Source: an uncultured Mucispirillum sp. (lineage in GTDB: Bacteria; Chrysiogenota; Deferribacteres; Deferribacterales; Mucispirillaceae). Taken from it: 64,000 nt of DNA. The notes under the pieces were generated by a model that made no database searches, was not told where the DNA came from, and worked only from the letters and a program-made list of their open reading frames with translations. Of the stretch, positions 1 through 21,609 are shown in pieces. Location of the stretch: the NCBI GenBank assembly GCA_944325215.1, contig CALUZC010000003.1, positions 1 through 64,000 on the forward strand. The letters run 5' to 3'. Within the stretch, counting starts at the first letter, position 1, and each line of letters opens with the position of its first letter. Made by a program: the position numbers and the translations under genes.

Positions 1-190
1 TTGGTATTCATAGAGCAGGATATGTAAAAATATAATCATAGAAAACTGAATTTACAGACTTTTTTTCACAGGCTCAAGGTTTTTATTATGTTTCACAGTT
101 TATATATGAATGTTGGTATTCTTATTTTTTAAATAATTGATAAAACTTATAGTGAATATTGGTTTTCATTAGTTACTTTAAAATTAAACA

Positions 191-223
191 AATAAAAAGC
201 CCATTTGATAACCAAATGGGCTT
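191..223 (-). terminator. Terminator of the duplicated potD end
   Basis: An 11-bp perfect stem (197-207 with 213-223) around a 5-nt loop is followed on the minus strand by a T-rich run (196-191). It ends the cassette and the truncated potD copy. The whole hairpin is the exact reverse complement of the one at 3512-3538, so the loop is inverted relative to the intact potD copy. Confidence 0.85.
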
Positions 224-386
224 AAATTATTATAACTTATTGATTAACTTTTAATTTATTCCAGTATTCACTGTATATTGGTAGGGCATCTTCAATATTA
301 AGCTGGAATTCAGAATTTTGTAAATCTTCATTAGTAGGGAAGATAATTCTGCTGTTTTTAGCATTTTCATCTAAATATTTTCCAAC
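197..386 (-). repeat. 190-bp direct repeat, copy 1 (potD 3' end plus terminator)
   Basis: This stretch aligns without gaps to 3512-3701. I count 12 mismatches in 190 positions, three of them in the terminator loop. Similarity stops sharply at 386/3701 on one side and at the hairpin on the other. Repeat-to-repeat distance is 3,315 bp. The layout resembles an element inserted at a gene's 3' end that carries its own copy of that end, or a recombination scar. Confidence 0.9.
237..386 (-). pseudogene. Truncated potD 3' end (last ~49 codons)
   Basis: Read on the minus strand, this keeps the potD frame from VGKYLDENAKN to the same LKVNQ ending and stop codon. Against the intact gene it has five synonymous codon changes and three conservative replacements (D to N, E to D, Q to E). 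This looks like divergence under purifying selection, so the fragment probably came from a functional divergent potD allele rather than decaying here. It has no start and begins 10 nt after the stop codon of the nuclease-like gene, so it is not expected to be translated. Confidence 0.85.
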
Positions 387-396
387 ATTTCTTTTT

Positions 397-1398
397 TTAC
401 ATGCACCAATTATCAAACATATCCAAAATATGCTCTATTTTATTGAAACATTCTTCATATGTTCCAGTAAATATATCATTTTTAATATAAGCAATAGGTG
501 TCCATGTATATATTTTTAACCTGCTTACTCTTTCAATATTAATATTATACTTTTCACAAGTTTTGTATGCAATATCAAGCATTTTATTTATTTCATTTCT
601 ATCTTTTGATTCTGTTTTAATAATCAATAAAATCTTATCTTTTTTATCAAAATAATTTTCTATTTGAAAATACATGTTAGATTTATGATAATTTGCAGGA
701 TAAAACCAAAAACCGAGAAACATTCCACCAGGATTATTTACCTGTTCCCAATTACAAACCACATTATCCATAGATTTTTCTTTTAAGCGAGTATATATCC
801 GTTTTTCTAGTTCTTTATAAAATCCACAGCATGCATCATAACTTTTCTTAATAGATGACAAATCAGTTTTATATGAATTTGTTTTTGCTTCGATATTTTT
901 AAGACGTTCAAAATAATCTATAAATATATCATTTTTTATATGGCTGTGTTTTTCAAAAAGTGATAGTAAATCATTTCTTGATATATATTTGTAGTTTTCT
1001 CTTTCTATAGAATTAACAATATATGTGCTGTCATCTCTTGTTTTAAGAAATACACATACAAGTTCTAAATTATTTTCATTGCAATGGTTTTGTGCTTTTT
1101 CTTTATAATTTGCTAACTGGTTTCCATGCTGGTTTGTTCCAGTTTTATCTTCAATAATTATAAAATATTTTTTATTAACTGTAACAGATATATCTATTTT
1201 TTCCCACTGCCTCCAACAATATACTTGTTCTATATTTAGGTTTTCATTACCAATAATCATTTTAATAAAATCTTTTGCCAAAGTATTTAATTCTTTATGT
1301 TCTATATATTGATTATCAGCATAAGAAATAAGCCACGTTAAAAATGCATCTTGAGCAAGTTCATTTGTGCCTATTTCAAATAAATTTGGTTTATTCAT
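397..1398 (-). CDS. PD-(D/E)XK nuclease superfamily protein
   Basis: A 333-residue soluble protein with no signal peptide. The N-terminus (NLFEIGTNELAQDAF, then TWLISYAD) matches my memory of the PDDEXK_4 group. A nuclease core is visible: D69 in KIDI, then E83-x-K85 in IIIEDKTGT, followed by Q94-L95-xx-Y98. The C-terminal half is unassigned. An AGGAG lies 7 nt before the ATG. It is the second gene of a cassette, 16 nt downstream of the RCC1 lipoprotein, and its stop lies 10 nt before the truncated potD end. Such proteins often occur in accessory or defence regions, but substrate and role are unknown. Confidence 0.75.
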   Translation of the reverse strand: MNKPNLFEIGTNELAQDAFLTWLISYADNQYIEHKELNTLAKDFIKMIIGNENLNIEQVYCWRQWEKIDISVTVNKKYFIIIEDKTGTNQHGNQLANYKEKAQNHCNENNLELVCVFLKTRDDSTYIVNSIERENYKYISRNDLLSLFEKHSHIKNDIFIDYFERLKNIEAKTNSYKTDLSSIKKSYDACCGFYKELEKRIYTRLKEKSMDNVVCNWEQVNNPGGMFLGFWFYPANYHKSNMYFQIENYFDKKDKILLIIKTESKDRNEINKMLDIAYKTCEKYNINIERVSRLKIYTWTPIAYIKNDIFTGTYEECFNKIEHILDMFDNWCM

Positions 1399-1414
1399 AT
1401 TAATTCTCCTAATT

Positions 1415-3142
1415 CTAATTAAATATTATTTTTTCAAAAGTGTACCAACCATAAGTTGTATAAAGTGAGCTACTTTCAGTTAAAATATATGTGCTTGCAT
1501 CTACATATGTGCTAAATATTTGTTCATATACATATATAAATGTCATTACTTTTGTAACCTTACCGTTAATATCAGTTACTTTTGTAGGTGAGTTAATGTT
1601 GTCTTCCCTTCCAATCCCAAGCTGACCACCTTTGTTATTACCCCATGCATAAAGAGAGCCATCTTCCAGTATAGCAAAAATTGATTTATAGGTAGTATAA
1701 TTTTTATCACTATTAATTATTAAATCCATAATCTTGCCATTAATAGCTGTTACTTTTGTAGGTGTGTTTTTATCTTCATTACTTCCAATTCCCAGTTCAC
1801 CATAATAATTCTTACCCCATGCATAAAGAGAGCCATCTTCCAGTATAGCATGAGATGCTGAAGAACTAGTTATCAGCTTTTTAATTTTGCCAGGTAAATT
1901 TACTATGGTAGGAGTATTCTTATTTATTTTATCGCCAACCCCTAGCTGACCACTATAATTCTCACCCCATGAATAAAGAGAACTATCTTCCATTAATGCA
2001 TAAACTGATGAACCATTAGTTATTAGTTCTTTAATTTTGCTAGGTAAATTAACCTTAGTAGGTGTGTTTTTATTTACTTCATCACCAACTCCTAGCTCAC
2101 CACTATAATTCTCACCCCATGAATAAAGAGAACTATCTTCCATTAATGCATAAACTGATGAACCATTAGTAGTTATTAGTTCTTTAATTTTGCTAGGTAA
2201 ATTAACCTTAGTAGGTGTGTTTTTATTTACTTCATCACCAACCCCTAGCTGACCATAACTATTCTTACCCCATACATAAAGTGCACCATCTTCCAGTATA
2301 GCATAAACTGATGAACCAGTAGTTATTAGTTCTTTAATTTTGCTAGGTAAATTAACCTTAGTAGGTGTGTTTTTATTTACTTCATCACCAACTCCTAGCC
2401 GACCACTTTCATTATAACCCCATGCATAAAGAGAACTATCTTCCATTAATGCATAAACTGACGAACCAGTAGTTATTAGTTCTTTAATTTTGCTAGGTAA
2501 ATTAACCTTAGTAGGTGTGTTTTTATTTACTTCATCACCAACTCCTAGCCGACCACTTTCATTATAACCCCATGCATAAAGAGAACTATCTTCCATTAAT
2601 GCATAAACTGACGAACCAGTAGTTATTAGTTCTTTAATTTTGCTAGGTAAATTAACCTTAGTAGGTGTGTTTTTATTTACTTCATCACCAACTCCCAGCT
2701 GACCATAACTATTCTTACCCCATACATAAAGTGCACCATCTTCTGTTATAACATAACACGCTGATTCAGTAGGGTTATCACCTGCACATTTAATCAATTT
2801 TACTTTACCTGGAATATCAACTTTTTTATTATAGGCTACATATTCATCAGTAAGTCCTAATCCTAACTGACCATCTTTATTATTGCCCCAGGCATAAAGT
2901 GAACCATTATCTAAAATTGCATATAGGGAGTCTTGCCATAATCTTAAGGTATTATTCCATGTAGTAAAGTGATAAAACTCTTTTACAGCATTTGGATCAG
3001 GCTTTGGTTCTGGTAAAACTGAACCATCACCTCCATTATTTCCACTGTTATTACTTCCATTATTGCTGTCACTACAAGCAGTTATCATAAAAATTGATAA
3101 AACTGCATAAATTAGTGTTATTATAAGTTTTTTCTTTTGCAT
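1415..3142 (-). CDS. RCC1-repeat surface lipoprotein
   Basis: A 575-residue protein with a lipoprotein signal (MITAC, Cys23), then a Gly/Ser/Asn/Pro-rich linker to about residue 50. The rest is RCC1-type beta-propeller repeats, each with a LYAWGxNxxGQLGxG-like core. The central units are almost identical 50-residue repeats. RCC1 propellers are usually protein-binding; here the protein should be tethered to the envelope. AAGGAGT lies 5 nt before the ATG. It heads a two-gene unit with the nuclease-like gene, and its promoter contains a C9 tract suggesting phase variation. The binding target is not known. Confidence 0.8.
   Translation of the reverse strand: MQKKKLIITLIYAVLSIFMITACSDSNNGSNNSGNNGGDGSVLPEPKPDPNAVKEFYHFTTWNNTLRLWQDSLYAILDNGSLYAWGNNKDGQLGLGLTDEYVAYNKKVDIPGKVKLIKCAGDNPTESACYVITEDGALYVWGKNSYGQLGVGDEVNKNTPTKVNLPSKIKELITTGSSVYALMEDSSLYAWGYNESGRLGVGDEVNKNTPTKVNLPSKIKELITTGSSVYALMEDSSLYAWGYNESGRLGVGDEVNKNTPTKVNLPSKIKELITTGSSVYAILEDGALYVWGKNSYGQLGVGDEVNKNTPTKVNLPSKIKELITTNGSSVYALMEDSSLYSWGENYSGELGVGDEVNKNTPTKVNLPSKIKELITNGSSVYALMEDSSLYSWGENYSGQLGVGDKINKNTPTIVNLPGKIKKLITSSSASHAILEDGSLYAWGKNYYGELGIGSNEDKNTPTKVTAINGKIMDLIINSDKNYTTYKSIFAILEDGSLYAWGNNKGGQLGIGREDNINSPTKVTDINGKVTKVMTFIYVYEQIFSTYVDASTYILTESSSLYTTYGWYTFEKIIFN
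1948..2700. repeat. Intragenic tandem array, five ~150-bp units
   Basis: Units lie at 1948-2097, 2098-2250 (153 bp, one extra codon), 2251-2400, 2401-2550 and 2551-2700. The last two differ only at two positions near their ends, indicating recent duplication. Each unit encodes one 50-residue RCC1 repeat, so copy-number change keeps the reading frame. Further, more diverged RCC1 units flank the array. Confidence 0.9.
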
Positions 3143-3171
3143 ACAATACTCCTTTTGATAAAATTTTTATC

Positions 3172-3198
3172 ATTATATCACGGGGGGGGGAATGTCAA
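3172..3198 (-). promoter_or_regulatory. Promoter with C9 tract in the spacer (candidate phase-variable)
   Basis: On the minus strand there is a consensus -35 TTGACA (3198-3193) and a -10 TATAAT (3177-3172) preceded by TGA, an extended -10. The spacer is 15 bp and contains nine consecutive C residues (plus-strand G tract 3182-3190). Slipped-strand changes in the tract would alter the spacing; two extra C would give the usual optimum of 17. The RCC1 lipoprotein start is 30 nt further on. Confidence 0.75.
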
Positions 3199-3505
3199 GT
3201 TCTATATTACCCATTATAACTTTTGTAACTTTAGAAAAACCTTTTAAAATATCCAGACTTAATTGTTTTTCCAAATAATAAAATATATAATGGTTTTTAA
3301 AAAATACTCTTATTGATTTATTAAGATAATCATAATCATACACTACATAGTTTTTATGAATATAAGCAATACATTTATTAAAATGTTACATTGCTATTAT
3401 GTTTGATATTTTATATATGAGTTTTTGTATTATTGATTTTTTAGTAAATTTAGTAAACTTATACTTATATGTTAGTTATATTTTATTGATCGCCTGAATA
3501 TTGTA
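3199..3505. other. AT-rich gene-free spacer
   Basis: About 300 bp between the cassette promoter and the potD terminator. I see no open frame with a ribosome binding site, no RNA gene and no mobile-element motif. It does not obviously match the sequence left of the other repeat copy (1-190). Confidence 0.5.
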
Positions 3506-3538
3506 TTAAAAAAGCCCATTTGGTTATCAAATGGGCTT
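3506..3538 (-). terminator. potABCD terminator
   Basis: An 11-bp perfect stem (3512-3522 with 3528-3538) with a GTTAT loop, followed on the minus strand by a T run. It lies 14 nt after the potD stop codon and ends the polyamine transporter operon. Confidence 0.88.
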
Positions 3539-3701
3539 AAATTATTATAACTTATTGATTAACTTTTAACTTATTCCAGTACTGGCTGTATATTGGTAGA
3601 GCTTCTTCAATATTAAGCTGGAATTCAGAATTTTGTAAATCTTCATCAGTAGGGAATATTATTCTGCTGTTTTTAGCATTTTCATCTAAATATTTTCCAA
3701 C
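3512..3701 (-). repeat. 190-bp direct repeat, copy 2 (intact potD 3' end)
   Basis: Partner of 197-386; it contains the last ~49 codons of intact potD plus its terminator. Same orientation and no gaps. Confidence 0.9.
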
Positions 3702-4592
3702 TACTTCTTGTTTTAAAGGTGACGCATAACCTACATAGTTAGATATTTTTGCAGAAATTTCTGGGCGTATTATAAAATCAATAAATTTATATGCGTTTTC
3801 TACATTTCTTGCTTTGCTAGGAATAACAAGGCTGTCCACCCAAACTGCTGCACCATCTTTTGGGTATATATATTTAATATCTTTATTTTCTAAAGATGCC
3901 ATATATGCTTCACCGCTCCACATAATACCAATATATACTTCTTCATTTAAAAATGGAGTTCTTGGAGAATCAGAGTTAAATAAAGTAACAGAAGGCATTA
4001 ATTTAACTAATTTATTATATGCTTCTTCTATTTCAGCTTTATTTTTACTATTACCAGAATAACCAAGGGAGCGTAATGCAGTATGGAATACTTCCCTAAC
4101 ATCATTTTGCAGCATTAATTTGCCTTTAAATTCTTCTCTCCATAAATCATCCCATGAAGTAATTGTTGCGGGGTCAATATATTTAGCATTTACTCCAATA
4201 GCTGTAGTTCCCCACATAAAAGGAACACTGTATTTATTTTCAGGGTCATAAGGCTGGTTTACAAGCTTTGGGTTAAGGTTATTGAAGTTTGATAGTTTTG
4301 ATTTATCAATAGCTTGAATTAAACCTTCTTTTTGCATTTTTTCAATATAGTAAGTTGATGGCACAGCAATATCATAATCAGCACCACCTGTAAGTTTGAT
4401 TTTTGAATACATTGCTTCATTACTGTCATATGTAGTATAATGAACTTTGATGCCAGTTTCTGCTTCAAACTGTTTGATAACATCATCAGGAATGTATTCA
4501 GACCAGTTATAAACAAATAATTCGTTTTCGTTTTTTTTAGTGCAGGCAAAAAGTGTAAAAGCTGCCATAAGCACAACAAGAATTTTTTTCAT
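3552..4592 (-). CDS. potD: Spermidine/putrescine-binding lipoprotein PotD
   Basis: The substrate-binding protein of a polyamine ABC importer, 346 residues, the usual family length. It has a short signal peptide with lipobox LFAC (Cys17), so it should be a lipid-anchored periplasmic binding protein. The mature N-terminus (NELFVYNWSEYIPDDVI, then FEAETGIKV) is typical of PotD/PotF. The ATG overlaps the potC stop by 4 nt, indicating coupled translation. Its 3' end is duplicated at 197-386. Whether it prefers spermidine or putrescine cannot be told. Confidence 0.93.
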   Translation of the reverse strand: MKKILVVLMAAFTLFACTKKNENELFVYNWSEYIPDDVIKQFEAETGIKVHYTTYDSNEAMYSKIKLTGGADYDIAVPSTYYIEKMQKEGLIQAIDKSKLSNFNNLNPKLVNQPYDPENKYSVPFMWGTTAIGVNAKYIDPATITSWDDLWREEFKGKLMLQNDVREVFHTALRSLGYSGNSKNKAEIEEAYNKLVKLMPSVTLFNSDSPRTPFLNEEVYIGIMWSGEAYMASLENKDIKYIYPKDGAAVWVDSLVIPSKARNVENAYKFIDFIIRPEISAKISNYVGYASPLKQEVVGKYLDENAKNSRIIFPTDEDLQNSEFQLNIEEALPIYSQYWNKLKVNQ

Positions 4593-5362
4593 CTTTTCCT
4601 CTCTTTTAACATTATTTGTGTAACAATAACAATAAGCATTGATACACCAAATATAATAGTACTTAACGCATTTACTTCTGGTTTTACCCCAGTTCTAACC
4701 ATTGCATATATTTTTTGTGGTAATATTTCAAATCTTGGACCAGATGTGAAAAATGCACATATACTATCATCCATAGAAATAGTAAAGCTTAATATCCACG
4801 CAACAACAACAGCAGGGAAAATAGATGGCAGAATAATATGAAAGAAAGTCTGTAATTCATTTGCACCTAAATCTTTTGCTGCTTCTATAATATGTATATC
4901 AAAATTTGAAAGCCTTGTAAAAAGCACAGCCATTACAAAAGGCAGGCACAGGGTAATATGTGTAATAAGTAAAGTCTGAAACCCTAAACTAAGGCTTAGA
5001 AATTTGAATAATAAAAGTAGAGATATACCCATAATGATTTCTGGTGACATTATTAAGATATAAAGTAAGGATATAATAAAGTTTTTACCAAAAAACTTAA
5101 ATCTAAATAAAGTAACAGCAGAAAGAGTGCCTATTATTGTTACTAATGTAGCAGATGATATACCAATAATAAGTGAATTTATAAGCCCTGAAATTAATGT
5201 GCTTGAATGAAACAGTTTTTCGTACCATCTTAAAGAAAAACCTTTCCATACGGCACCAGTAGGGGCATCATTAAAAGAAAATACTATTAAAACTATTAAC
5301 GGCAGGTATAAAAATACGTATACGAAAAAAATGTAAGACCATTGTAATTTTGATGTTTTCAT
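4589..5362 (-). CDS. potC: Polyamine ABC transporter permease PotC
   Basis: A 257-residue inner-membrane permease with about six hydrophobic segments. It has the EAA loop that contacts the ATPase (EAAKDLGANELQTFFHIILP). It pairs with PotB to form the channel. Its start overlaps the potB stop by one base (TAATG), and it is followed by potD with a 4-nt overlap. Confidence 0.93.
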   Translation of the reverse strand: MKTSKLQWSYIFFVYVFLYLPLIVLIVFSFNDAPTGAVWKGFSLRWYEKLFHSSTLISGLINSLIIGISSATLVTIIGTLSAVTLFRFKFFGKNFIISLLYILIMSPEIIMGISLLLLFKFLSLSLGFQTLLITHITLCLPFVMAVLFTRLSNFDIHIIEAAKDLGANELQTFFHIILPSIFPAVVVAWILSFTISMDDSICAFFTSGPRFEILPQKIYAMVRTGVKPEVNALSTIIFGVSMLIVIVTQIMLKERKR

Positions 5363-6219
5363 TACAGCACCTTTGTTTGAAATGATTTAGAGCTTTTATA
5401 ATATGCCCATATCATTAAACCCATAACAACAGTAATTAAAACACTTGCAGCAGAACCAAGCGGCCAGTTTTGTATAACAGATGTAGTAAACTGTTCTTGT
5501 ATAATATTACTTACCATCATTGTTTTACCACCCCCCAGCAGGCTTGGAATATAGAAAAGCCCTAATGCAGGTAAAAATACAAGGACTACACCTGCAATAA
5601 TCCCCGGCGATGTAAGTGGTAGAATTATATGGTAAAAAGTTTTTAGTTTACTTGCCCCTAAATCTTGAGCAGCTTCAACATATTTGAAATCAAATTTTTC
5701 AATAGTAGCATATAATGGAAGTATCATAAATGGCAGCAGGGTATATACAAACCCAAAAATTACAGCACCTTCAGTGTATAATAGTTTTAATGGAGCATCT
5801 ATTATCCCTATTTTTATAAGAATAGTATTAATAAGCCCATTAGCAGCAAGCATATATGATATTGCATAAGTTCTTATTAAAGCACTTGTCCAGTATGGAA
5901 TAACTACCAAAAGGGCAAGAAGTCCTTTATATTTTGATTTTGAACGTGCCAAAATATAAGCAAAAGGATAGCCGATAATTAAGCATAATGCTGTTGCAAT
6001 AGCTGCTATTTTAAAGGAATTAATAAATATTTTAAAATAATTATCAGAAAAAAATTGTTTATAGTTATCAAGAGTAAATACAGCTTTAACAAATGATGAG
6101 CTGTCATACTCCATAAAACTAACAACAAACATAATAATATTAGGTATTAAAGCAAAAAGTAGTAACCATAAAACAATGATACCTATTGTAACTTTATGAA
6201 AAAGGCTATGCTCTTTCAT
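5362..6219 (-). CDS. potB: Polyamine ABC transporter permease PotB
   Basis: A 285-residue permease with six predicted membrane segments and an EAA motif (EAAQDLGASKLKTFYHIILP). Gene order potA-potB-potC-potD and its greater length relative to PotC support PotB. The start lies 14 nt inside potA, so translation is probably coupled. Confidence 0.93.
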   Translation of the reverse strand: MKEHSLFHKVTIGIIVLWLLLFALIPNIIMFVVSFMEYDSSSFVKAVFTLDNYKQFFSDNYFKIFINSFKIAAIATALCLIIGYPFAYILARSKSKYKGLLALLVVIPYWTSALIRTYAISYMLAANGLINTILIKIGIIDAPLKLLYTEGAVIFGFVYTLLPFMILPLYATIEKFDFKYVEAAQDLGASKLKTFYHIILPLTSPGIIAGVVLVFLPALGLFYIPSLLGGGKTMMVSNIIQEQFTTSVIQNWPLGSAASVLITVVMGLMIWAYYKSSKSFQTKVL

Positions 6220-7309
6220 CTTTTAAGATAACCTCCCAGCCAGAAACCCAGCCAACAGATACTTGTTCATTCATATTATAGTCAAAATCTTCATATTCTT
6301 CGTCAAAAAATTCGCTAGCTTTAATAATAGTGCCGTTATTTAATTTGATTGTAGTATCAAGTGTAGCACCTTTATATATTTTTGTTTCAATATTTCCAAC
6401 CATTAACCCTTCAGTATCTGGGTGTTCACTAAGCTTTTCTATTCTCATATCTTCTGGGCGTAAAAGAAGAGTAAATTTATCACCAATATTAAGTTGTTTT
6501 TTAGTTTTAATGTTGCAGATTCTACCTTCTACTTTTGCTTTTACAAGATTATCTTCAAAACCTAATACTTCACCTTTTAATACATTAACATCACCAATAA
6601 AGCTCGCAACAAATATAGAATTTGGCTCTTCATATAGATTTTTAGGTGTTCCACACTGTTCTATAATGCCCTGATTCATAACAATAACTCTATCAGACAT
6701 AGAAAGTGCTTCTTCTCTATCATGAGTAACTAGAACAAATGTAATGCCAAGTTTTCTTTGCAGCTGCTTTAATTCTTTTTGCATATTAATTCTTAATGAT
6801 GCATCTAAAGCACTAAGTGGTTCATCAAGTAAAAGCACTAATGGTTTGTTTACTAAAGCACGGGCTAGTGCAACACGCTGCTGCTGACCACCTGAAAGCT
6901 GGTGTGGCTTTCTATCAATAAATTCTTCTAATTTAACAATACGCAGCACTTCCATTACTTTATCTTTTATTTCAGTTTTTGGAACTTTATGCATTTTAAG
7001 TCCAAAAGCAATATTATCAAACACGGTCATATGTGGAAAAAGAGCATAATTTTGAAAAACTGTATGAACTTCTCTATTATTTGCAGGAATATTATTTATT
7101 CTTTTGCCATTTAAAATAATATCACCACTATCAGCATGCTCAAACCCTGCAATTAACCTTAATGTAGTTGTTTTTCCACAACCAGATGGACCTAATATGG
7201 TAAGAAATTCACCATTATATATTTTTAAATCAAGATTATTAAGGACAGATTTACCATCAAAACTTTTATTTACCTGTCTAAGTTCAACTAAAACCTCTTG
7301 TTTTTCCAT
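6206..7309 (-). CDS. potA: Polyamine ABC transporter ATPase PotA
   Basis: A 367-residue ATPase that powers polyamine import. It has Walker A GPSGCGKTT (40-48), signature LSGGQQQ, Walker B LLLDEP followed by LSALD, and an H-loop in VTHDREEAL. The C-terminal third is a TOBE-type regulatory domain, as in PotA/CysA/MalK ATPases. It is the first gene of potABCD, with AAGGTGA upstream of the ATG. Confidence 0.94.
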   Translation of the reverse strand: MEKQEVLVELRQVNKSFDGKSVLNNLDLKIYNGEFLTILGPSGCGKTTTLRLIAGFEHADSGDIILNGKRINNIPANNREVHTVFQNYALFPHMTVFDNIAFGLKMHKVPKTEIKDKVMEVLRIVKLEEFIDRKPHQLSGGQQQRVALARALVNKPLVLLLDEPLSALDASLRINMQKELKQLQRKLGITFVLVTHDREEALSMSDRVIVMNQGIIEQCGTPKNLYEEPNSIFVASFIGDVNVLKGEVLGFEDNLVKAKVEGRICNIKTKKQLNIGDKFTLLLRPEDMRIEKLSEHPDTEGLMVGNIETKIYKGATLDTTIKLNNGTIIKASEFFDEEYEDFDYNMNEQVSVGWVSGWEVILKDERA

Positions 7310-7341
7310 TCATCACCTTATTTAAAAATAGTAAGGAATGT

Positions 7342-7368
7342 ATTATACTTCCTTGTAAAAATTGTCAA
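7342..7368 (-). promoter_or_regulatory. Promoter of potABCD
   Basis: Minus-strand TTGACA (7368-7363) and TATAAT (7347-7342) with a 15-bp spacer; a weaker TAATAC would give 17 bp. It lies about 33 nt upstream of potA. Confidence 0.6.
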
Positions 7369-7613
7369 GATAATTTTTATAAAATAATATATTTATTTAT
7401 AAATACAACAAAAATTATATAAATGTTAGATTAATATATAGTATAAATTATTGTTATTATTAATAATAATATAAAATATAAAAACAGTAATTTTTTTATA
7501 AAAAACACTAAAATTTATTATAAAATAATTAAAAATTAAAAAAATTAAGTAAATTTATTAATGTAAATCTCAAAATTTAAATAAAAATATAGTTTTTTAT
7601 TAAATTAATTGCC
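7369..7613. other. Very AT-rich divergent intergenic region
   Basis: About 245 bp almost entirely of A and T between the potA promoter and the copA promoter. No gene, strong hairpin or RNA was seen. Probably curved or easily melted DNA. Confidence 0.4.
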
Positions 7614-7642
7614 TTGACATATAATTTTTTTTTAAATATTAT
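7614..7642 (+). promoter_or_regulatory. Promoter of copA-csoR
   Basis: TTGACA (7614-7619), a 17-bp spacer and TATTAT (7637-7642), immediately upstream of the CsoR-like operator. Confidence 0.7.
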
Positions 7643-7649
7643 TATATAT

Positions 7650-7670
7650 TACCCCTATACCTATGGGGTA
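7650..7670 (+). promoter_or_regulatory. CsoR-type copper operator
   Basis: Imperfect inverted repeat with TACCCC at 7650-7655 and GGGGTA at 7665-7670, resembling the G/C-tract operators bound by CsoR repressors. It covers the expected transcription start. csoR is the last gene of the same operon, implying autoregulation with derepression by Cu(I). Confidence 0.7.
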
Positions 7671-7704
7671 GGGTAATAAGTGTGTAAAGTATAAAGGTTG
7701 TTTA

Positions 7705-10191
7705 ATGAAAGAGAAGTTTAATATTACAGGTATGACATGTTCTGCATGTTCTGCTCATGTATATAGGGCAGTATCTAAAGTTGATGGTGTTAAAGATGTA
7801 AATGTTAACCTGCTGTCTAATAATATGGTTGTAGAATATGATGATAATGTTCGTCAGGAAGATATTATAGGTGCAGTTTTAAATGCTGGCTATGGTGCTC
7901 AAATTGCTTCTAGTGAGCATGATAATATAAATAGTAATACTAAACATGTTGATGAAGTTGATGAAATATTTAACAGATTAAAATATTCTTTAATATTTTT
8001 TATTCCTGTATTGTATTTATCTATGGGGTCTATGGTTGGTTTACCAATATTTTCATTTTTTAAAGGATATGAAAACAGCTTTAGTTTAGTATTTACTATA
8101 TTTTTACTTTCCATACCTGTTATTTTTATAAACAGAATATTTTTTACAAGGGGTTTTAAATCCTTAATAAGTGGTGCTCCTAATATGGATACATTAGTAG
8201 CACTTGGTTCATCTTCAGCTATAATATATAGTGTTTTTGCAATTTATAGAATAGGTTATGGGCTTGCAGTATCTAATAATGATTTAGTTTTAAAATATGC
8301 ACATTCTTTATATTTTGAATCAGCTGTTACTATTTTAACATTGATTACTTTAGGTAAATATTTAGAAGCAAAATCAAAGAAAAAAACAAGTAAAGCATTA
8401 GAAAAATTAATGGATTTAGCACCAAAAACTGCCATAATTGAACGAGATGGAAAAGAAATTAGTGTATTAATTGAAGAAGTTAAGGCAGGGGATATTTTAA
8501 TTTTAAAACCTGGTGGTTTGATTGCAGTTGATGGTGAAATTATAGAAGGCAGCACATCAGTAGACCAGTCTGCCATTACAGGTGAAAGTATGCCTGTGGA
8601 AAAAACTGTTGGTGATAAGGTAATTAGTGCTACAGTTAATAAGACAGGTTATATTAAATTTAAAGCCTTGAAAGTAGGTAAAGATACTACAATTTCGCAA
8701 ATTATTTCTTTAGTAGAAGATGCTGCCAATTCAAAAGCACCTATTTCAAAGCTGGCAGATAAAATAAGTGGTATATTTGTTCCTATAGTTATTGCAATAT
8801 CAATAATATCATTTTTGTTTTGGATTTATATGGGTATGTCCTTTGAATTTGCATTATCTATTGCCATATCTGTGCTTGTAATATCCTGCCCGTGTGCTTT
8901 AGGGCTTGCTACTCCAGTAGCTATAATGGTTGGAACAGGCAAGGGAGCAGAAAATGGTATTTTAATCAAATCTGCTGAAAGTTTAGAAACTGCACATATG
9001 ATTAATGCAATAGCAATTGATAAAACAGGGACAATTACAGAAGGTAAAATGTCTGTAGATTCAGTAAAAGTATATAAATATGATGAAAATAAAATTCTTC
9101 AAATTGCATATGCTATGGAAAAAAACTCAGAACACCCTGTTGCAAAAGCTATCGTAAATAAATTTCATAATTTGAATATGGATACTATTTTTGCAGCAGA
9201 CTTTAAATCTTACACAGGTAAAGGGGTAAGCTGTATTATAGATAATAAGTTATATAGTTGTGGCAATATGGGTTTTATGAACGAGTTAGGTGTTATGATT
9301 ACAGAAGATAATAGTTGTGCACAAAATAATATAATTGCTACACCTGTTTATATTTCTGAAGATAACGAGCTTATAGGGATAATATATGTGTCTGATACCA
9401 TAAAGGAATCAAGCATAGAAGCAGTAAAAAGATTTAAAGAAGAAAATATAAAAGTATATATGCTTACAGGAGATAATAAGAGAGTGGCGGAGCATATAGC
9501 TAATCAAGCAGGGATAGATAATGTATATGCAGAACTTATGCCACAGGATAAAGAGAAAGTAATCAAGCAGCTTCAGGCAAATGGTTTAAAAGTGGCTATG
9601 GTGGGAGATGGTATAAATGATGCACCAGCATTAATGCGTTCTGATCTAGGTATAGCAATTGGAGCAGGGACAGATATTGCTATTCAGTCTTCAGATATTG
9701 TTTTAATAAAGAACAATTTACTTGATGCTGTAACTGCTATTAAGTTGAGCAGGGCAACATTAAAAAATATTAAGATGAATTTATTTTGGGCATTTATATA
9801 TAATATAATTGGTATACCTGTTGCAGCTGGTGTTTTTTATATATCATATGGGCTTACACTAAACCCAATGATAGCAGCAGCTGCCATGAGTTTTAGTTCA
9901 ATTTTTGTAGTAACTAATGCTTTAAGGTTAAAAAACTTTAAGGTAGAAAATAATAATATAAAAGGGGAAAAGAAGATGAATGTAATTGTAAATGTTAATG
10001 GTATGAACTGCAACCACTGTAAAATGTCAGTTGAGAAAGCTTTAAATTCTGTTGACGGAGTTGTCTCAGCAGAAGTTGATTTAGCTGCAAAAAATGCAAC
10101 AGTTGTATTATCTAAAGAAGTTGATGATAATACTCTTTTAAATGTAGTAAATGAGGCAGGGTTTCAGGCCGTATCTGTGGAGAAAGCATAA
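7705..10191 (+). CDS. copA: Cu(I)-exporting P1B ATPase CopA with fused C-terminal CopZ domain
   Basis: An 828-residue inner-membrane Cu(I) efflux ATPase. An N-terminal metal-binding domain carries MTCSAC (C12, C15). A TGES actuator loop follows, then the membrane CPC motif (C395-P396-C397), the DKTGT phosphorylation site (D439), SEHPVA for nucleotide binding and GDGINDAP. Unusually, a second metal-binding domain (residues ~758-828, MNCNHC) sits at the C-terminus after the last membrane helices. It looks like a complete CopZ chaperone joined in frame, with its own internal start. Cysteines at positions 395 and 397 mark the copper/silver class. CsoR control is indicated by the upstream operator. 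Confidence 0.93.
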   Translation: MKEKFNITGMTCSACSAHVYRAVSKVDGVKDVNVNLLSNNMVVEYDDNVRQEDIIGAVLNAGYGAQIASSEHDNINSNTKHVDEVDEIFNRLKYSLIFFIPVLYLSMGSMVGLPIFSFFKGYENSFSLVFTIFLLSIPVIFINRIFFTRGFKSLISGAPNMDTLVALGSSSAIIYSVFAIYRIGYGLAVSNNDLVLKYAHSLYFESAVTILTLITLGKYLEAKSKKKTSKALEKLMDLAPKTAIIERDGKEISVLIEEVKAGDILILKPGGLIAVDGEIIEGSTSVDQSAITGESMPVEKTVGDKVISATVNKTGYIKFKALKVGKDTTISQIISLVEDAANSKAPISKLADKISGIFVPIVIAISIISFLFWIYMGMSFEFALSIAISVLVISCPCALGLATPVAIMVGTGKGAENGILIKSAESLETAHMINAIAIDKTGTITEGKMSVDSVKVYKYDENKILQIAYAMEKNSEHPVAKAIVNKFHNLNMDTIFAADFKSYTGKGVSCIIDNKLYSCGNMGFMNELGVMITEDNSCAQNNIIATPVYISEDNELIGIIYVSDTIKESSIEAVKRFKEENIKVYMLTGDNKRVAEHIANQAGIDNVYAELMPQDKEKVIKQLQANGLKVAMVGDGINDAPALMRSDLGIAIGAGTDIAIQSSDIVLIKNNLLDAVTAIKLSRATLKNIKMNLFWAFIYNIIGIPVAAGVFYISYGLTLNPMIAAAAMSFSSIFVVTNALRLKNFKVENNNIKGEKKMNVIVNVNGMNCNHCKMSVEKALNSVDGVVSAEVDLAAKNATVVLSKEVDDNTLLNVVNEAGFQAVSVEKA
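9976..10191 (+). CDS. copZ: Candidate internally initiated CopZ copper chaperone
   Basis: Within the 3' end of copA, an in-frame ATG at 9976 is preceded by a purine-rich AGGGG at 9963-9967 with an 8-nt spacing. The product would be 71 residues with GMNCNHC (C12, C15), the size and motif of a free CopZ. The same sequence is also translated as the CopA C-terminal domain. E. coli makes a CopZ from copA by programmed frameshifting; here internal initiation could give the same outcome. Whether the internal start is used is an inference. Confidence 0.5.
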   Translation: MNVIVNVNGMNCNHCKMSVEKALNSVDGVVSAEVDLAAKNATVVLSKEVDDNTLLNVVNEAGFQAVSVEKA

Positions 10192-20756: not shown

Positions 20757-20784
20757 TTGACAAATAATGCCATTAGGGTATAAT
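20757..20784 (+). promoter_or_regulatory. Promoter of the lipoprotein gene at 20818
   Basis: Consensus TTGACA (20757-20762), a 16-bp spacer and consensus TATAAT (20779-20784). One of the best sigma-70-type matches in the window, suggesting strong expression. Confidence 0.75.
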
Positions 20785-20817: not shown

Positions 20818-21609
20818 ATGAAAAAGTCTTTTTTATTATTTCTTTCAAGCATTATAGCTGTTTTTTTAGTAACAGGTTGTGCTGAAGAAAACAAAAATAA
20901 TGGTGGTTCAACTACTACACCACCTAGTGTAGTTCCTATTGATCCATCTAATCCATCATCATTAACTGACTTATTAGGGAATTATGAAATAGTGTTTTTC
21001 TATACTGATGGAAGTGGTCAACTATCAATTGCTAGTGATTGTTCTAAAGTAGAATATTATACTGGAAAAGCAGATGCAAAATGTGTTCAAGGCACAAATA
21101 ATGTTGATTTTAGAGGTTATGGAAGAGTAGGAGTAGATAATCCAGCCAGTCCAACAACTATTAATATTACAACTAAAATGCAAATGACAAATGAATGTTT
21201 AAAAAATCCTACTGTTGGTGCATGTGCAAATGATGCATTAGGACCAATCAATTATTGGAGCCAAGCTCAAAATAATCAGTATAATTATAATGTATTTACA
21301 CCAATACCAATGGATGCAATTGTAGATGGTGCAGTAAATAATGGTACAAGTGCTGTAACAGGTGTTAAAGGTAGACATCTTAAAGCAAATGTTAATACAA
21401 CAGGTTCAACATATAAGTTTGAATTATTATCTGATGGTTCTATTAGAAATACAATGGTAGACCGTAGTATATTACCAGCTAATGTTACAGTAATTATGAA
21501 AAAAATTGATACTTTTCCTAGCGGTTATACATTAGATAAAGATATTAAATTTCCAGAACCTGTTATAGAAGGTTTTGTTGATAATCCAGCAGCTGCAACT
21601 GCGGAATAA
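20818..21609 (+). CDS. Lipoprotein of unknown function
   Basis: A 263-residue protein with signal peptide and lipobox VTGC (Cys21), then a low-complexity Asn/Gly/Thr/Pro linker and a domain with paired cysteines. AAAGGAG lies upstream of the ATG. It forms a complete single-gene unit with a consensus promoter and a strong terminator. No family recognised. The LTDLLGNYEI segment resembles LDSFIGNYKP in the lipoprotein at 21901, hinting at a shared domain type. Confidence 0.65.
   Translation: MKKSFLLFLSSIIAVFLVTGCAEENKNNGGSTTTPPSVVPIDPSNPSSLTDLLGNYEIVFFYTDGSGQLSIASDCSKVEYYTGKADAKCVQGTNNVDFRGYGRVGVDNPASPTTINITTKMQMTNECLKNPTVGACANDALGPINYWSQAQNNQYNYNVFTPIPMDAIVDGAVNNGTSAVTGVKGRHLKANVNTTGSTYKFELLSDGSIRNTMVDRSILPANVTVIMKKIDTFPSGYTLDKDIKFPEPVIEGFVDNPAAATAE

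Follow-up and report, generated by a model that had tools for sequence, protein, structure and literature searches.

Does a run of nine cytosines in the spacer of a consensus promoter (3172-3198) make the surface lipoprotein gene behind it phase-variable? The promoter lies on the minus strand of the window, the 64-kb stretch of Mucispirillum DNA analysed here, where positions 3198-3172 read, 5' to 3', TTGACA-TT-CCCCCCCCC-GTGA-TATAAT, CCCCCCCCC being C9. The -35 box TTGACA (3193..3198) and an extended -10 element, TGA plus TATAAT (3172..3180, hexamer 3172-3177), which is alike in paralogous and orthologous promoters, enclose a 15-bp spacer (3178-3192) that includes the tract (3182..3190; G9 on the plus strand), with a homopolymer of at least 8 bases between recognisable -35 and -10 boxes. 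This arrangement of TTGACA and extended TATAAT around a 15-bp spacer with nine Cs had been described in the first-pass annotation and is confirmed, as is its remark that the window has no other long G/C homopolymer: the C9 tract is the only G/C run of at least 7 bases in the 64 kb, and the next longest is C6 at 5531-5536. From the -10 box to the start codon (first base 3142) is 29 nt, with the ribosome-binding site AAGGAG (3149..3154, minus strand) in between, a position from which the promoter can drive a surface or secreted protein, the ATG being that of a lipobox protein. Upstream, the terminator of the potD operon (3512..3538, minus strand, terminator scan) isolates the promoter. The promoter and terminator scan did not list 3172-3198 as a 15-bp promoter because it admits spacers of 16-18 bp only, and an Rfam search of window positions 1-8000 returned no known RNA. 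A 56-aa ORF spanning the tract (3173-3343) was rejected as an implausible gene that terminates within the promoter.

Two minus-strand genes follow the promoter. The first encodes an RCC1-repeat surface lipoprotein of 575 aa (1415..3142; Pfam RCC1, 8e-98, and orthologs) with the lipobox ITAC and near-identical internal repeats; the second, which starts 16 bp after it, encodes a PD-(D/E)XK nuclease of 333 aa (397..1398; Pfam PDDEXK_4, 1e-9). The two are presumably co-transcribed, and a terminator hairpin (197..223, minus strand, terminator scan) closes the pair. Judged by eye, the nuclease has the D...ExK motif (KIDI...IIIEDK); it is 100% identical in the sister genome G010, and PADLOC gives a weak match to the candidate defence family PDC-S26. 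A defence role for the nuclease is speculation. The pair sits after potD, and a diverged second potD 3' end, forming the far edge of the inserted cassette, lies beyond it (237..416, minus strand; 323-nt repeat, 84% identity to the potD 3' region). G010 is arranged alike, and in G006 the sequence found beyond the pair in the window directly follows potD. By this comparison of gene orders, the pair is an insertion after potD. Duplication of the diverged potD 3' end plus terminator (window 1-460 and 3480-3760) flanks the cassette; insertion by gene-end duplication is suggested. The RCC1 lipoprotein and its C9 promoter also occur at other genomic locations in G006, G009 and G014, where the accompanying nuclease is complete in G006, truncated by the end of the contig in G014 and present as a remnant in G009, which indicates that promoter, lipoprotein and nuclease travel together in several species. 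The lipoprotein-nuclease pair named by the first-pass annotation is thus real and moves jointly across several species. We note that the lipoprotein gene contains near-identical internal repeats of ~150 bp (window 1900-2760), which likely recombine and would vary the repeat number of the protein.

The C9 promoter is real and well beyond chance, because the genome that carries it has 33 C/G tracts where about one is expected and its 27-mer recurs genus-wide. Pattern searches and selected stretches of this genome (G000; 2.55 Mb, 67 contigs) yielded 33 C/G tracts of 8-11 bases (lengths 8/9/10/11 = 2/22/6/3) and only one of exactly 7. The base composition of the 64-kb window predicts ~1.2 runs of at least 8 bases and ~0.2 of at least 9 in 2.55 Mb, compared with the 33 and 31 found. 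The well-covered Mucispirillum genomes carry ~15-43 such tracts each. The exact 27-mer architecture is present in three copies in G000. A search of ~85,000 species for TTGACANN-C8-N(1-9)-TATAAT returned 65 stretches, 15 of them from Mucispirillum and all 15 in the 27-bp form with a 15-bp spacer, and a scan of viral contigs for the poly-C promoter returned no match. Homopolymers are error-prone in assemblies, yet this element recurs in independent assemblies, at orthologous and paralogous sites, across nine Mucispirillum genomes that include a one-contig genome; a chance homopolymer or an assembly artefact is rejected on this recurrence and is extremely improbable. Between -35-like and -10-like boxes lie 12 of the 33 tracts in G000. 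Most non-promoter tracts in these genomes lie in or near coding genes. In G000 these genes include one for a type III DNA methylase (Mod) with a frame break at the tract, one for a formyltransferase, and others for methyltransferases and glycosyltransferases; some of the intragenic tracts coincide with frame breaks.

Poly-C spacer promoters form a family with a preferred class of target. The loci collected from ten family genomes (nine Mucispirillum and G005), a biased census seeded by pattern searches, contain 55 such promoters, with tracts of C7/8/9/10/11 in 3/5/39/7/1 cases and spacers of 12/13/14/15/16/17/19 bp in 1/1/7/38/4/3/1. A predicted lipoprotein lies downstream of 40 of the 52 promoters with an ORF, compared with 6 of 51 control ORFs in the window, with lipoproteins predicted by one simple rule in both sets (p ~1e-11, uncorrected for orthology). 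A second RCC1 lipoprotein in G000 (contig position C20:17564) uses a poly-C promoter too, and the RCC1 lipoprotein orthologs in G006, G009, G010 and G014 have the identical C9 promoter design. Of the 44 tracts in the one-contig genome G007, 9 were assigned to promoters (spacers of 14, 15, 16 and 17 bp), although the assignment at 1921193 is doubtful for its poor -10, and 5 of the 9 lie directly 5' of lipoprotein genes. Mucispirillum therefore has a promoter type that, judging from these gene neighbourhoods, it most likely uses mainly for surface lipoproteins.

We consider it probable that this is a family of phase-variable, or graded, sigma-70 promoters whose C-tract spacers are prone to slippage. 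At 3172-3198, a sigma-70 promoter with an extended -10, slipped-strand mispairing would alter the tract by +/-1 and shift the -35 box relative to the -10 box, giving spacers of 14 bp at C8, 15 at C9, 16 at C10 and 17 at C11, and transcription of the lipoprotein-nuclease operon would change heritably and reversibly with tract length. Judged by how ordinary promoters of the genus are spaced, C9-C11 are predicted to be active, with C10 close to optimal, and tracts of C8 or less to be weak. Between species, tract length differs at several related promoters: the MNKSLISILL lipoprotein promoter is C10 in G000 and G010 and C9 in G008, the MKKFLMPFF lipoprotein promoter is C8 in G009 and G011 and C9 in G014, and the MKKSLLxILL lipoprotein promoters are C9 in G008 and G009 and C7 in G011. 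Such differences among orthologous or related promoters look like the behaviour of slipping tracts. Recurrence of the design in front of dozens of surface-lipoprotein genes across the genus suggests, short of proof, shuffling of surface proteins by run-length change.

The exact flank type of 3172-3198 is more uniform. A search for TTGACATT...RTGATAWAAT with any 5-14 bases between gave 26 matches in nine genomes, all with a 9-base gap, which is pure C9 in 25 of them. In six of those genomes, 139 of the 194 other C tracts are C9 (p = 3e-4 for the difference; p = 5e-3 when the canonical-flank promoters are recounted as 17 independent loci). Because nine bases occur in 26/26, significantly above other tracts, canonical-flank promoters appear to be held at a constrained or strongly preferred length. 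The main rival explanation takes the nine Cs as a fixed-length element that is read as sequence or shape, with no slippage, either by a dedicated regulator or as a rigid GC spacer that suits RNA polymerase at 15 bp; such an element would define a constitutive or co-regulated lipoprotein regulon. It accounts for the constant 9-nt slot, and also for a C tract that is more conserved than the -10 hexamer, for other flank partitions (AAAT+GT, AAT+GTT, ATT+GTG), most of which still total 15 at C9, and for interruptions of the last C (C8T, C8A) that retain 15 bp. However, C9 is the modal length for all C tracts in these genomes, coding ones included, promoters that lack the extended -10 (TTGACAAAT/AAAT-Cn-G...) range from C7 to C11 with spacers of 14-17 bp plus one of 19 bp, certain orthologous promoters differ in length, and no regulator was identified. 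We regard a fixed-length element as unlikely, though it is the strongest competitor. A shade less likely again is its specific form, in which TTGACATT-C9-RTGATAWAAT (27 bp) would be a dedicated class of lipoprotein promoter, the fixed-length poly-C spacer itself being recognised and slippage offering no more than an infrequent way out. The proposal of a phase-variable promoter, made in the first-pass annotation, thus stands in part: the genus-wide set of poly-C lipoprotein promoters, the tract-rich genomes, the spacers of 12-19 bp and the orthologs that differ speak for it, whereas the invariance of the exact flank type (26/26, with the RCC1 orthologs at C9 in 5/5 species) argues against free switching.

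The same annotation had suggested that the present allele may be weakly expressed for its short spacing, which ordinary promoters of the genus do not support. Tract-free, perfect TTGACA/TATAAT pairs that are intergenic and well placed in G000 have spacers of 15 (6), 16 (6), 17 (3) and 18 bp (1), with scattered others, and the potA promoter, TTGACA-N15-TATAAT (7342..7368, minus strand, consensus promoter search), is a tract-free control at exactly 15 bp. With one mismatch per box, pairs upstream of genus ORFs with spacers of 14-18 bp number 3, 6, 10, 6 and 2, compared with ~1-2 per spacer length for permuted -35 controls. Since ordinary consensus promoters peak at 15-17 bp, a 15-bp spacer seems normal in Mucispirillum, slightly below an apparent optimum of 16, and, with potA at 15, C9 is not necessarily a weak allele. 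Nor do these ordinary spacers support reading C9 as an off state owing to a short 15-bp spacer. Instead, C9 is probably the expressed default at the edge of the active range; C10-C11 would match or exceed its expression, and C8 would fall below it. A further natural control without a tract is found at 20757-20784 of the window, where another lipoprotein gene (20818-21609) has consensus promoter boxes separated by an ordinary 16-bp spacer.

Spacer length can matter less to promoters with an extended -10. The tract could thus slip with hardly any change in expression, the extended -10 tolerating the spacing and the tract being a side effect of the spread of the promoter. This would fit the presence of TG 5' of the -10 in all canonical members, and ordinary promoters of 15, 16 and 17 bp that all look functional. 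However, functionless pure tracts should decay by substitution, and the 5-14 base search found no decayed version with canonical flanks; we consider this explanation quite improbable.

The phase-variable reading has precedents in promoters of other bacteria. The number of Cs sets the expression of a surface protein in Neisseria fetA (frpB), which has poly-C between -35 and -10 (PMC5320596), and in Neisseria opc, which has poly-C in its promoter (PMC3447861). The promoters described here likewise join a C tract to a surface protein gene, but fetA and opc are single genes with tracts around 10-14, whereas Mucispirillum has many stereotyped promoters per genome, centred on C9 and 15 bp. In Neisseria meningitidis porA, a poly-G tract also lies in the -35/-10 spacer and one nucleotide alters transcription (PMC3899988); there the tract is G on the coding strand and belongs to one gene, for a porin rather than for lipoproteins. 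Treponema pallidum tp0126 similarly has poly-G between -35 and -10, with best transcription at a total spacing of 17 (PMC7864442), and active tracts probably span shorter lengths in Mucispirillum because its ordinary promoters centre on 15-17. By analogy with the established switches of fetA, porA and tp0126, 3172-3198 would plausibly work in a similar way, if the tract slips; slippage at the population level and its effect on transcription are both inferred. Several features set the Mucispirillum promoters apart: stereotyped copies in large number within a genome, a bias towards lipoproteins, a set point at C9 and 15 bp, and the phylum in which they occur.

Genomes of Campylobacter and Helicobacter carry C/G tracts genome-wide, mostly of 9-10 bases and including surface-sugar genes, which act mainly by frameshift. 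G000 resembles them in its genome-wide C/G tracts, surface-sugar genes included, but 3172-3198, unlike these frameshift loci, acts, if at all, on transcription. The Mucispirillum tracts in glycosyltransferase, methyltransferase and type III methylase genes appear to resemble known contingency-locus systems. Mucispirillum lives in gut mucus and has been linked to inflammation in mouse models (PMC5285517), and neither its genome paper nor the open-access literature searched reports phase variation in it. If the promoters are phase-variable, each gut population would carry a shuffled surface repertoire, through poly-C lipoprotein promoters together with many intragenic tracts. The promoter set would also provide a natural series in which to relate spacer and tract length to expression.

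Several tracts outside the promoter family merit description. A C11/G11 tract at C19:21515-21525 (locus L049, G000:C19:17500-25500) lies where the frame of a type III-like DNA methylase gene is broken; the gene comprises 447 aa plus a 179-aa continuation and adjoins a co-directional 1023-aa ORF, and this methylase is a candidate phase-variable gene. Four other loci in G000 (L043, L044, L045 and L052) have C9-C11 tracts within genes of surface-sugar clusters that encode formyltransferase, methyltransferase and glycosyltransferase functions, and a 135-aa gene at contig position C11:67078, WxcM-like by eye, ends in a tract of C9 in G000 but C10 in G007. At L039, two C9 tracts on opposite strands and 18 bp apart (G000:C4:65850-65858 and 65877-65885) separate two phage-like genes, and the adjoining 249-aa ORF is antirepressor-like. 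G005, from another genus of the same family, has 62 C tracts of at least 8 bases, nearly all C9, of which few show the promoter arrangement; the habit of carrying tracts seems to predate the promoter family or to extend beyond it. Other host-associated bacteria, namely Treponema MAGs (L130, L144, L148, L152, L164 and L167) and Histophilus somni (L145), likewise have promoter patterns with a poly-C spacer and variable spacing.
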